Assembly (NCBI GenBank): GCA_021156365.1
Contig: JAJNDK010000001.1
Coordinates: forward strand, 558,001-622,000
Length of the DNA stretch: 64,000 nucleotides
Reading direction: 5' to 3'
From: Bacteroidota bacterium
Lineage (GTDB): Bacteria > Bacteroidota > Bacteroidia > B-17B0 > Aurantibacillaceae
Shown here: positions 7,834 through 27,666 of the stretch, in pieces
Layout: each line of letters starts with the position of its first letter
How positions within the stretch are numbered: the first letter of the stretch is position 1
Made by a program: the position numbers and the translations under genes
The notes under the pieces: model-generated
What the model saw: the letters and a program-made list of their open reading frames with translations, nothing else
Databases searched by the model: none
What the model was told of the DNA's origin: nothing

Positions 7834-8286
7834 CTACTTGTAATGCCCCGGTTTTTTTGCTGAATAGGTTCCGTTCTTATCAAACCATAGTGTTTTACCT
7901 TTCCTTACGGAATAATATACAGCTTCTCCATAATCGTCATTACTGAACCATACCGTATATTTGTCTTTCGGGTAATTTTTTTTGAAGTAATCGCCGATAG
8001 CTGAAGGATAACCTGCGCTGGCTTCCATATCCGAACGGATGAAGTCTGCTTTTTTATCATACACCACTGTTTTTCCCATACCGTTCTTGTCCTTATAGGT
8101 AGCAACATAATATTTCCCGTCCATACTCCAGGTGGCGGTAGTGTTGGGGTAATCGCTGCCAAACCGCGTTTCAATATTAGAAGGCACACTTACCTTCGCT
8201 GCTGTGGTTGGTTTTGCTTTTTTTGTTTGCGCTGTCATGACATTCATTCCAAATGCCAGGAGCAAAAATAAAATGGTCTTTTTCAT
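7834..8286 (-). CDS. Secreted PepSY-like protein
   Basis: A 150-residue protein with a signal peptide (MKKTILFLLLAFGMNVMTAQ). The mature part has two similar halves: RFGSDYPNTTATWSMDGKYY with ATYKDKNGMGKTVVYD, and YFKKNYPKDKYTVWFSNDD with AVYYSVRKGKTLWFDKNG. This duplicated pattern of a helix followed by an antiparallel sheet is the one seen in PepSY-like/BLIP-like periplasmic proteins of Bacteroidota, whose roles are mostly unknown. It stands alone, downstream of the twin small-RNA region and divergent from the TPR protein gene at 8982. Confidence 0.65.
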   Translation of the reverse strand: MKKTILFLLLAFGMNVMTAQTKKAKPTTAAKVSVPSNIETRFGSDYPNTTATWSMDGKYYVATYKDKNGMGKTVVYDKKADFIRSDMEASAGYPSAIGDYFKKNYPKDKYTVWFSNDDYGEAVYYSVRKGKTLWFDKNGTYSAKKPGHYK

Positions 8287-8372
8287 GGGGGATTGTTTTA
8301 AGCAATGTTCTTATTCAGAAAATGGTCCGGATAGTATACGGTTCCTTATACTTACCTTATCCGGTAATGTTA

Positions 8373-8408
8373 CAAAAAAAGAAAAGCCGGGAGAGAGAAC
8401 CCGGCTTT
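8373..8408 (-). terminator. Intrinsic terminator of small-RNA copy 1
   Basis: AAAGCCGGG (383-391 of 8 kb) pairs with CCCGGCTTT (8400-8408). Read on the minus strand the stem is followed by TTTTC and seven T residues, so it terminates minus-strand transcription. On the plus strand there is no T run. Confidence 0.8.
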
Positions 8409-8509
8409 CAAAAAACAAAGGGAAGATGGCTTTTTTGCAGATCCGTGTCCAACCTCGGCTTTAGCCTTTGGTCCCGGTGCATGGTTTATATGCTATCTTT
8501 CAGTAACTA
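8373..8509 (-). ncRNA. Candidate small RNA, copy 1 (unrecognised family)
   Basis: On the minus strand a promoter-like TTG-N17-TACTTTTA (8513-8540) is followed by a conserved block (8485-8437), a short A-rich linker and an intrinsic terminator (8408-8373), predicting an RNA of about 137 nt. The block can fold as GCACCG (8480-8475) paired with CGG and UGC at its 3' end with a 3-nt bulge, an inner GACC/GGUU helix and a GGC-UAAA-GCC hairpin. It contains no open frame of note. I do not recognise the family. Confidence 0.55.
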
Positions 8510-8512
8510 GTG

Positions 8513-8540
8513 TAAAAGTAAACCGGCTTTATTACCGCAA
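8513..8540 (-). promoter_or_regulatory. Candidate promoter of small-RNA copy 1
   Basis: Minus strand TTG (8538-8540), 17 bp, TACTTTTA (8513-8520). The same TACTTTTA with a TTG 18 bp upstream precedes the acyl-CoA synthetase gene at 50200, which supports it as a usable -7 variant. Confidence 0.5.
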
Positions 8541-8583
8541 TATGAACAGCACATTATGCCGGCATGGTGTCTGAAAATTTCTT

Positions 8584-8629
8584 TTAACAGGCAATCAACA
8601 TTTAAGCTATTTTTTTCATTACCTGTTAA
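8584..8629. repeat. Inverted repeat between the two small-RNA units
   Basis: TTAACAGGCAAT (8584-8595) and ATTACCTGTTAA (8618-8629) are reverse complements with one mismatch, separated by 22 bp. It lies between the terminator of copy 2 and the promoter of copy 1. It could be an operator or a stem-loop at the end of copy 2 read-through; no evidence separates these. Confidence 0.5.
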
Positions 8630-8745
8630 CTAAATAAAAAACGTCTGTCCGCCCCGGAAGCGAACAGACGTTCGTAATATTATTTGCATACCGTGTCCGA
8701 CCCTGGCTGTAGCTTCTGGTCCCGGTGCGTGGTACTATTACTCAT
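8629..8745 (-). ncRNA. Candidate small RNA, copy 2 (unrecognised family)
   Basis: Same architecture as copy 1: conserved block at 8733-8686, linker, then a strong terminator in which AACGTCTGT (8640-8648) pairs with ACAGACGTT (8664-8672) and is followed on the minus strand by TTTTTTATTTA. The outer helix GCACCG with CGG-UA-UGC is preserved with a 2-nt instead of a 3-nt bulge, and the GACC/GGUU helix of copy 1 becomes GACC/GGUC. The linkers and terminator stems of the two copies are unrelated in sequence, so the conserved part is specifically the folded block. No clear -33/-7 pair was found upstream; the 5' end is a guess. Confidence 0.5.
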
Positions 8746-8945
8746 TAAAAAAACATGCCAGCAGAAGGAATATACCCATAAAAAAAAGCTGTAGAAGTGT
8801 TGATTTTACTGATGAAAAAGACTTATTTAAACAATTCATCAACAAATTTCTGCTGATTGTTGAAAGTATGTTTATTTCATGCTTTTTTATGGAAATAAGC
8901 AGTGGAAACATCCATATATCAGTATAAAAACCGTGAATTTTAATG

Positions 8946-8953
8946 TATTTTTG
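8946..8953 (+). promoter_or_regulatory. -7 element of the TPR-protein gene
   Basis: TATTTTTG matches TAnnTTTG exactly, 29 bp before the ATG at 8982. No clear -33 TTTG is visible at the usual distance. Confidence 0.4.
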
Positions 8954-8981
8954 AGGGTTTCCGTATCAATGTTATAGTCCT

Positions 8982-10673
8982 ATGAAAAGATCGCTTCATT
9001 TCCTTGTCCTGATTGTGCTTATTACCGTCTCTCCCTTATTTTCGCAGGGTTGGGAACTTGACTTGAGAAGCAATGTAGAGATCCGTACCTGGAAACTGAC
9101 CACCAAAGCTGAAGAAAGCCTGAAACCACTTGGAGGTGCAAGCATCAAACTAATGAGAGGCTCAACAGTTGTGAAACAAACCACCAGTGATGGCAACGGC
9201 GATTTCATCATCCAGGTGCCAGCCAATGGTGATTTTATACTGGAAGTGTCTTATGCAGGCTGTAATACCAAAAGGGCTTCGGTCAATACCATGAATGTGC
9301 CCGATTTTGGTGAGGAAATTTTCAAACCGACTTTCGGTATAGGCGGATTCATTATGTCGAAACCGTTTCCTGGGATTGACTACACCGGCTTGCAGCAAGC
9401 CCTGGTAAAAGTGGCCTATGTTCCGCGGGTAAAGAATTTTGATGATGATGAAGCCTATACACAGCAAAGTCTCGGATCTGTATCCAAAATTGCAGAAGCG
9501 GAAAAGATATTGATGGAACGGTTTTGCTCCACCAACAAATCGGGCGACGAAGCGATGAAAAAACCGGACTGCCCGCTTGCCAAAACACTGTATGAAAAGG
9601 CAATGACGATCATTCCGGGCGAAGCCTATCCCGTTCAGCAATTGGTGAAAGTAGGTGAATGCCTGAAAGAAAAAGAACTGGCAGCGCAAAAAGCCAAAGA
9701 AGAAGCCGCTAAAGCCGAAGCGGAAAAACTGGCAAAACAAAAAGCAGAGGAAGAAAAAGCGCTGAAGGCAAAAGAAGAAGCGGAAAAAGCGGCAGCCGAA
9801 AAGCTCACTCAGGAAAAAGCAAAAGCGGAGGCTGATAAGCTCGCTAAACAAAAAGATGAAGAGCAAAAAATTCAAAAAGCCAAAGACGATGCGGCTAAAG
9901 CAGAAGCAGCTAAAATAGCAAAACAAAAAGCGGAGGAAGAAAAAGCGCTGAAAGCAAAAGAAGAAGCGGAAAAAGCGGCAGCCGAAAAGCTCGCTCAGGA
10001 AAAAGCAAAAGCGGAGGCTGATAAGCTCGCTAAACAAAAAGATGAAGAGCAAAAAATTCAGAAAGCCAAAGAAGAAGCCGCTAAAGCCGAAGCAGAAAAA
10101 TTAGCCAAAATTGCTAAGGATGCCGAACTCAAAGCACAAAAGGAAAAAGAACTCGTAACTAAAACTGAGGCAGACAAGCTCGCCAAACAAAAAGATGAAG
10201 AGCAAAAAATTCAGAAAGCCAAAGACGATGCGGCTAAAGCAGAAGCAGCTAAAATAGCAAAAGCGGCCAAAGAAACGGAAACCAAAACGCAAAAAGAAAA
10301 AGAGCTGGCTGCCAAAGCAGAGGCAGAGAAACTGGCAAAAAACAAAACACCTGCTCAGGCCGAACCTCCTAAAACGGTTGCAACAGCAACCACTTCCGCC
10401 ACCCCAAAGAAAAATAATGGCATTACCGTCATAAGCACCGGCACGCCAAAAGAATCGAATACAAAAGTAAAATCGGGAAGTGCAAACTATGCTGTCAGGC
10501 AGGAGTTAGGATCGGGCAAATACAACGATGCCATACACAAAGGCGACAATCTGATGGCCAACAAACACTATGCAGAAGCAAAAACTGCCTACCAGGAAGC
10601 ACTGAAGCTGAAACCGAAAGATGAGTATGCTACCTCACGTCTGAATGAGGTGGAAAAACTGATGAAGCAGTAA
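8982..10673 (+). CDS. Secreted protein with regulatory-like domain, long Lys/Glu/Ala coiled coil and C-terminal TPR
   Basis: 563 residues. A signal peptide (residues 1-22, ending SPLFSQ) is followed by a carboxypeptidase-regulatory-like beta sandwich at about 40-105 (GGASIKLMRGSTVV, DGNGDFIIQVPANGDF). A globular part to about residue 225 contains two CP motifs and a TPR-like EKAMTIIPGEAYP. Residues about 228-460 are a low-complexity helix rich in Lys, Glu, Ala and Gln that must form a long charged coiled coil or single alpha helix. After a Ser/Thr/Pro-rich linker, the last 70 residues form a TPR motif (HYAEAKTAYQEALKLKPKDEYA). It probably spans part of the periplasm, perhaps anchoring at the cell wall; the exact role is unknown. 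The coil is encoded by long near-identical DNA repeats. Confidence 0.7.
   Translation: MKRSLHFLVLIVLITVSPLFSQGWELDLRSNVEIRTWKLTTKAEESLKPLGGASIKLMRGSTVVKQTTSDGNGDFIIQVPANGDFILEVSYAGCNTKRASVNTMNVPDFGEEIFKPTFGIGGFIMSKPFPGIDYTGLQQALVKVAYVPRVKNFDDDEAYTQQSLGSVSKIAEAEKILMERFCSTNKSGDEAMKKPDCPLAKTLYEKAMTIIPGEAYPVQQLVKVGECLKEKELAAQKAKEEAAKAEAEKLAKQKAEEEKALKAKEEAEKAAAEKLTQEKAKAEADKLAKQKDEEQKIQKAKDDAAKAEAAKIAKQKAEEEKALKAKEEAEKAAAEKLAQEKAKAEADKLAKQKDEEQKIQKAKEEAAKAEAEKLAKIAKDAELKAQKEKELVTKTEADKLAKQKDEEQKIQKAKDDAAKAEAAKIAKAAKETETKTQKEKELAAKAEAEKLAKNKTPAQAEPPKTVATATTSATPKKNNGITVISTGTPKESNTKVKSGSANYAVRQELGSGKYNDAIHKGDNLMANKHYAEAKTAYQEALKLKPKDEYATSRLNEVEKLMKQ
9740..10115 (+). repeat. 186-bp direct repeats inside the coiled-coil coding region
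   Basis: The stretch beginning with CGGAAAAAGCGGCAGCCGAA at 9781 recurs at 9967, a shift of 186 bp (62 codons), with only scattered substitutions over about 170 bp. A third, shorter relative beginning GACAAGCTCGCCAAACAAAA starts near 10174. The repeats are in frame, so loss or gain of a unit would change coil length by 62 residues without breaking the gene. Confidence 0.85.
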
Positions 10674-27015: not shown

Positions 27016-27020
27016 CAGTA

Positions 27021-27434
27021 AAGAGGCTGTTCTATCGCTTCCTGACAGGCTTGCCTCGTCAGGAGGAGGAAAGTCCGGGCAACAAAGAGCATTCCGCCTT
27101 GTGATAAGCAAGGGATTGTGCTGAAAGGCATGAGACAGAAAGTGTCACAGAGAATATACCGCTCAGACAGGACGTGTTCCTCGTCAGAGTAAGGGTGAAA
27201 ATGTGAGGTAAGAGCTCACAGCTGCTTTGGTAACAAAGCTTGCAGAAAAACCTCGGAAGTTGAAAGGCCAAATAGGCTGCATTTGTGGAGCTGCTCGCTT
27301 CCTTTGCCGTCCCGATTCTTCGGGAGGCATTAATGCAGTGGGTAGGTCGATTGACCCTGACTGTCAACGTCAGGGCAGATAAATGATAGAAATTCGCCTT
27401 CGGGCGGAAACAGAACCCGGCTTATACGCCTCTT
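27021..27434 (+). ncRNA. rnpB: RNase P RNA, class A
   Basis: The catalytic RNA of RNase P, about 414 nt. The universal P4 strand GAGGAAAGTCCGGGC is present at about 27065-27080 and its 3' partner ACAGAACCCGGCTTAT near 27410-27425. The terminal P1 helix pairs AAGAGGCT at the 5' end with GCCTCTT at the 3' end (27428-27434), and a T-rich run follows that probably serves in termination. It lies alone, between the GNAT/XRE operon (divergent) and the TonB receptor gene. Confidence 0.95.
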
Positions 27435-27666
27435 TTATTTTTCCTTCTTATTTTATAAAGAAATACCGTCTCTGAAATGCGCCCTGCAATCGGTCCGGAC
27501 CACCCCGATTTGATAGTTATTGAATCCGGTTGATCCGGGGCTTTTCTTTGCCTTTTGCTCTGATTTCGGGCTTCATCTATGTTAATTTAATCTTTGTCGT
27601 ACCTTGTTTTTTCCTTAAAAAATTCTTTTTATATTGTCATCAATATCATAAGCCCTGACAGCAGCT

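Follow-up and report, generated by a model that had tools for sequence, protein, structure and literature searches.

A probable family of stand-alone structured small RNAs, present as two neighbouring copies in a Bacteroidota bacterium

Features of the locus

The DNA analysed here, referred to as the window, is a stretch of 64,000 nt from a genome of the family Aurantibacillaceae (Bacteroidota). Two related elements lie close together near one end of it, both on the minus strand. Each has a conserved core, an intrinsic terminator behind the core, and a short direct repeat ahead of it. The features of the locus, including the neighbouring genes, are as follows.

8443–8487, minus strand: core of copy 1 (match to covariance model R1 at 8433–8487 and to model R2 at 8435–8487; homologue covariation), made up of ACCA, CCGG, a hairpin GACC/GGUU with GGC-UAAA-GCC, a GGA bulge, C, a bulged A and CGG
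8382–8409, minus strand: intrinsic terminator of copy 1, with stem and T-run kept in the same-genus genome G002
8513–8540, minus strand: promoter of copy 1, TTG-N17-TACTTTTA, with a comparable layout in G002
8584–8600, minus strand: upstream 11-bp direct repeat of copy 1, TGTTGATTGCC-TGTTAA, located by pattern search
8683–8735, minus strand: core of copy 2 (R1 match 8682–8735, R2 match 8683–8735), made up of ACCA, CCGG, a hairpin GACC/GGUC, a GGA bulge, C, a bulged A and CGG
8639–8673, minus strand: intrinsic terminator of copy 2, with 16 pairs
8828–8844, minus strand: upstream 11-bp direct repeat of copy 2, TGTTGATGAAT-TGTTTA
8982–10673, plus strand: divergent neighbour, a CarboxypepD_reg-like/TPR protein (Pfam scores below the curated cut-offs)
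7834–8286, minus strand: downstream ORF of 150 aa, with no Pfam match

The original prediction for this locus described a repeated 43-bp block on the minus strand, at 8443–8485 and 8691–8733. The repeat is borne out, as the two blocks are identical at 36 of 43 positions, while 500 first-order Markov shuffles of both flanking regions reach at most 28/43. The minus-strand terminators predicted after the blocks are both present (8409–8382 and 8673–8639), and the interval 8280–9000 contains five terminator-like sites, compared with 0.5 in shuffles. The promoter predicted for copy 1 could also be located, at 8540–8513. Judging from its position, transcription of copy 1 would start near 8507 and produce an RNA of about 130 nt. 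For copy 2, a convincing Bacteroidota-type -10 element was not seen; a scan for E. coli-type promoters gives a site at 8831–8803, with four sites in total against 2.3 in shuffles, an excess that is unclear. A third copy did not turn up in the window's genome.

Folding alone is unconvincing, because the isolated blocks fold no better than shuffles (z-scores of -0.10 and 0.80). The minimum free energy (MFE) structure of copy 1 also differs from the fold that covaries among homologues.

Homologues and their distribution

Model R1 was built from both window copies and the homologue in G002. This genome carries a single copy, whose promoter region, core and terminator give a 188-column alignment with 75% identity. 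Its setting differs from that in the window: the genes on its two sides are an OmpA/PD40 gene and one for a peptidase S51 that has a type 9 sorting tail. This tail and the promoter type are in keeping with the Bacteroidota. In G001, the third genome of the genus (66% complete), there is no R2 match.

Among the 87 genomes of the window's family, R1 has matches in 25 at E ≤ 1, many of them weak. Selection by eye for the motif gave 23 R1 matches, which were aligned with MAFFT. This alignment, A5, has the consensus CCGR-CAYC...GRUG-GGA-Y-A-CGG and is the source of model R2, which gives 68 matches at E ≤ 0.1 in 48 of the 87 genomes, with one to three per genome. Good-quality genomes are positive in 39 of 62 cases, and genera in 7 of 10. 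Two or three R2 matches occur in 16 genomes (G074 is counted solely through a match at E 0.015), and in four genomes, G000, G068, G082 and G036, the copies are no more than about 3 kb apart.

Counts out of 64 refer to fetched matches, which lie in 60 loci. The matches left out are G027:C58, G016:C388, G074:C84 and G060:C1 at 1837985, the last two with E about 0.015. A further alignment, A6, was fitted to model R2 and holds the 64 members together with an antisense partial match (L079 3913–3934) that is left out of the per-64 counts, giving 65 rows, 64 of them distinct.

Outside the family, only weak matches were detected, the best with E 2.7e-4, in 345 genomes of the class and in 296 (R1) and 395 (R2) genomes of the phylum. 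With no more than 14–19 candidates scored in each genome, and at most 67 in the search of the family, members may have been missed in all of these samples. The weak matches represent 13 loci (3, 5 and 5), all of which were inspected. L119 is the sole locus among them that combines CCGR...GGAYACGG with a four-pair helix P2; this locus falls within a reading frame of 660 aa, which we take to be MnmG-like. At L196 the motif ends are present with two of the four P2 pairs, and the opposite strand is covered by a 548-aa frame.

The conserved core

The conserved module can be written ACCA-N4-5-CCGR-(hairpin)-GGA-Y-A-CGG. None of the 64 members departs from CCG, GGA, the bulged A or CGG, a constancy that is partly built in by the choice of A5 rows by eye for the motif, and CCA is nearly invariant.

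The helices differ in how they can be assessed. P1, consisting of the three CCG/CGG pairs, is beyond a covariation test because it never varies. Across A6, 105 cells are changed on both sides of a pair (28.9 in shuffles). The paired share is 93.3% of cells, against 7–35% when the partners are slid. These counts are biased by the fit to the model. The same picture emerges from A5, which was aligned without a model (33 both-side changes against 10.2 in shuffles). P2 is paired in 99.2% of A6 cells, and six pair types occur at one of its positions. P3 is weaker, with 76.6% of cells paired, 7 G.U and 15 A.C. In L135, L164 and L169, a near-continuous hairpin, as judged by eye, takes the place of P2, loop and P3. 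MFE folding of the core recovers P1 in 36/64 members, P2 in 51/64, and the whole motif in 2/64.

The fold as originally drawn changes in two details. Its inner helices stand, and its outer GCA/UGC pairing fails as a general feature: GCA...TGC occurs in 4/64 members, and any three outer pairs of this type are possible in just 7/64. The drawing also lacked one covarying pair, formed by the R of CCGR and the Y of GGAYACGG, which leaves GGA and A bulged. This pair is A-U in 53 distinct A6 rows and G-C in 10. The G-C carriers are the window's genus, G036/G068/G082, and G083, and since these are separate groups, more than one event is likely.

The window's minus strand is favoured as the RNA, because P1 and P2 together contain 8 G.U against 1 A.C, an argument that the excess of A.C over G.U in P3 counts against. 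Core length is 34, 35 and 36 nt in 31, 29 and 4 of the 64 members, respectively, and thus no reading frame is kept. Peptide coding was rejected on the grounds of this variation by 1–2 nt, and because an ATG in copy 1 corresponds to ACG in the other copy.

Gene anatomy and genomic setting

A strict terminator lies downstream of the core in 57/64 members, compared with 3/64 upstream and 28/640 random windows. The stem starts at a median of 27 nt past CGG, and the remaining seven members have terminators that are, by eye, imperfect or short. The contrary case named alongside the original prediction, a plain repeat without terminators, is therefore not what these loci contain. Upstream, a TAnnTTT[GA] motif of the -10 type occurs within 90 nt in 34/64 members against 195/1280 random windows; the motif is absent in the other 30, and the random controls are mostly coding DNA.

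Neighbouring ORFs were defined with a simple in-house caller rather than taken from annotation. Of the 59 other loci, 10 have a homologue of the divergent neighbour at 8982–10673 (first 300 residues) close to the RNA. Relatives of the protein encoded by the downstream 150-aa ORF were not found in a scan of named genomes. Several sites recur. Those near FKBP, Hsp20, HhH-GPD, DUF2461 and DUF480 genes are for the most part in genus g2. In g6, groEL is no more than four ORFs away from the RNA at L154, L156, L157, L162, L163, L165, L166, L168 and L171. Counting up to four ORFs on either side of the RNA, FKBP is present at 19/64, Hsp20 at 10/64 and GroEL at 9/64. Hsp20 and FKBP genes were observed near the RNA elsewhere, among other loci at L133, L147, L169 and L170.

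A separate observation concerns L069, L070 and L071 (from G068, G082 and G036), where short repeats, mostly of the form RGC-GGTCCGGGATA-GCY, lie upstream of the RNA. Their stems are GGC/GCC or AGC/GCT, and GGATA is common to the repeats and the core. Two such repeats precede five of the six copies, and none was seen at L071 9771.

The upstream direct repeat

An exact TGTTNA-N5-TGTTNA repeat, with a period of 11 bp, lies 109–127 nt upstream of the matched core in 14/64 members, including both window copies. The exact repeat occurs in 2/64 on the other strand and in 2/313 regions before other ORFs. Allowing one mismatch gives 17/64 (9 on the other strand) against 13/313. With two mismatches allowed, the figures are 28/64 (37 on the other strand) against 83/313, and distinctiveness is lost. 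The 14 exact-repeat members include close relatives, and the repeat marks just part of the family.

A stricter version of the pattern has 18 matches in 14 genomes, compared with 7 for a reversed control. Eight of the 18 are directly upstream of the sRNA, and three, in three genomes (L178, L179 and L191), are upstream of ORFs that appear nadA-like. In these three, the direct repeat TGTTAATTACGTGTTAA precedes the ORF by about 110 nt.

We take the repeat to resemble a PHO box, that is, a PHO-type direct repeat. Control by a PHO regulon is possible but was not adopted: a PstC model matches in three of 14 genomes and has no match in the other 11, among which is the window's own, and no phosphate gene was recognised at the 10 strict-pattern matches inspected out of 18. 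The repeat is described here as a putative site of response-regulator type.

Proposed explanation and alternatives

The covariance search turned up homologues with compensatory changes in many related genomes, supporting the predicted duplicated family of structured sRNAs. That the family is one of stand-alone structured sRNAs is very probable. The region 8373–8745 would then hold two paralogous minus-strand genes for such an RNA, each transcript being about 100–130 nt long and comprising the conserved module, then a linker that varies and an intrinsic terminator of its own. An OmpR/PhoB-type regulator, acting as a dimer through the 11-bp repeat, would switch the gene. The RNA would act in trans, and its bulged module would bind a protein, either as a decoy or as part of an RNA–protein complex. 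We consider this whole explanation, with two paralogous stand-alone genes, switching through the repeat and action in trans through a protein-binding module, to have an even chance of being correct.

Protein binding is the most likely way of working, because it is the bulges, the adjoining CCG/CGG and the CCA that are conserved, while loop, linker and terminator drift. It is nonetheless a tentative reading of conservation patterns, to which we give a little under an even chance. What is conserved, a bulged helix together with CCA, is more readily explained by protein recognition or a tertiary fold than by a linear antisense seed. A more specific version, which must be regarded as rather unlikely, is that the RNA might be a decoy or scaffold for a putative RNA-binding regulator, forming a CsrB-like or 6S-like layer switched by a two-component system. 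The invariant CCGR/GGA-Y-A-CGG bulge would be the recognition site, and CCA would form a small pseudoknot by docking on its GG.

Hfq and CsrA are unlikely protein partners. The Hfq model has no match in any of 14 genomes (control matches in 5/14 named genomes), and the CsrA model likewise has none in 14 (control matches in 3/14 named genomes). Being compact, with a bulged module that is invariant and with covariation across dozens of genomes, the RNA could be used as bait for an RNA-binding protein in bacteria that gave no Hfq or CsrA match.

The main rival is base pairing through ACCAC. An sRNA of the GibS kind would use its unpaired 5' ACCAC, or GGAYACGG, as a seed for mRNA, with the hairpin as a scaffold. 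The position of the core agrees with this, since CCGR starts 12–16 nt past the -10 motif in 12 of the 34 members that carry one, which would put the core close to the 5' end; so does the near-invariance of CCA. The conserved unpaired stretch is, however, just 3–5 nt long, and within GGAYACGG the Y position covaries with the R on the opposite side of the helix. As a precedent, the paper on GibS describes a single-stranded 5' seed in a bacterium with no obvious Hfq or ProQ, but also an RNA that is relatively unfolded, whereas the present core is a helix (PMC7366714). Overall, base pairing is possible but doubtful.

It is improbable that the core and terminator form a riboswitch-like or protein-controlled leader that attenuates a downstream gene. 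A core followed by a terminator does have the layout of an attenuator, the 150-aa ORF of the window is downstream on the same strand, and in 23/64 members the closest ORF downstream shares the strand of the RNA, being Hsp20 at four loci, 192–275 nt away. But that ORF is on the opposite strand, and thus convergent, in 41/64, which argues for a stand-alone gene rather than a leader. No single gene family is consistently downstream, and the G002 element is convergent with the OmpA-domain gene.

It is very improbable that these are mobile elements or short interspersed DNA repeats with a fold arising by chance: they are short, have one to three copies and are at times in tandem, but copy number is low, neighbours recur across species, terminators, promoter motifs and compensatory changes are present, the exact A-U-type pattern has 0 matches in viral contigs, and copy 1 (148 nt) has no match in plasmids and two marginal ones in phages (E 0.4).

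Comparison with known RNAs

The preferred reading, a stand-alone structured sRNA that would bind a protein, can be compared with several known systems. The family itself is found in no catalogue searched. The original prediction could not match it to SRP, 6S, tmRNA or a known riboswitch class. Rfam 15 at gathering thresholds gives no match over the core in the window, in 20 homologue loci or in 16 more, and permissive thresholds give nothing significant there. A bacterial class A RNase P RNA was also noted in the window, at 27019–27440. A literature search recognised no description of the motif in the texts available, and supplementary motif lists may contain one.

Decoy sRNAs of the CsrB/RsmZ type present GGA in a structured context at many sites per RNA and bind protein. 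The present RNA shares GGA in a structured context, with protein binding only proposed. It differs in that each RNA has a single conserved site, and in the lack of a CsrA match in the 14 genomes.

Flavo-1 (RF01705) is a catalogued Bacteroidetes motif, marked as an RNA and not as cis-regulatory (PMC2864571). Its sequence and fold are unlike those of the present RNA, and it has no match in the window. Matches occur at L160 (5065–5145, 7184–7267 and 7484–7563, three within 2.5 kb) and at L165 (1879–1960). The one at L160 5065–5145 is directly downstream of the sRNA core without covering it; the others are kilobases away.

In the pan motif, which mostly occurs in tandem, a stem carries conserved bulged A residues, and binding of a dimeric protein has been suggested; panB/panC-type operons are located downstream of pan RNAs (PMC2864571). 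A stem with a conserved bulged A and a tandem arrangement are features of both. The present RNA differs in being without a constant downstream gene, and pan is not among the Rfam matches for the window and the 20 homologue loci.

GibS of Bacteroides thetaiotaomicron, an intergenic sRNA, is described as about 145 nt long and relatively unfolded, with a potential terminator and a single-stranded 5' seed that is conserved; its host has no obvious Hfq or ProQ (PMC7366714). How an sRNA works without Hfq in this phylum is an open point raised in the same paper (PMC7366714). The present RNA is like GibS in being an intergenic sRNA with a terminator in a bacterium without obvious Hfq. It differs in what is conserved: a 5' seed in the relatively unfolded GibS, and here a bulged helix.
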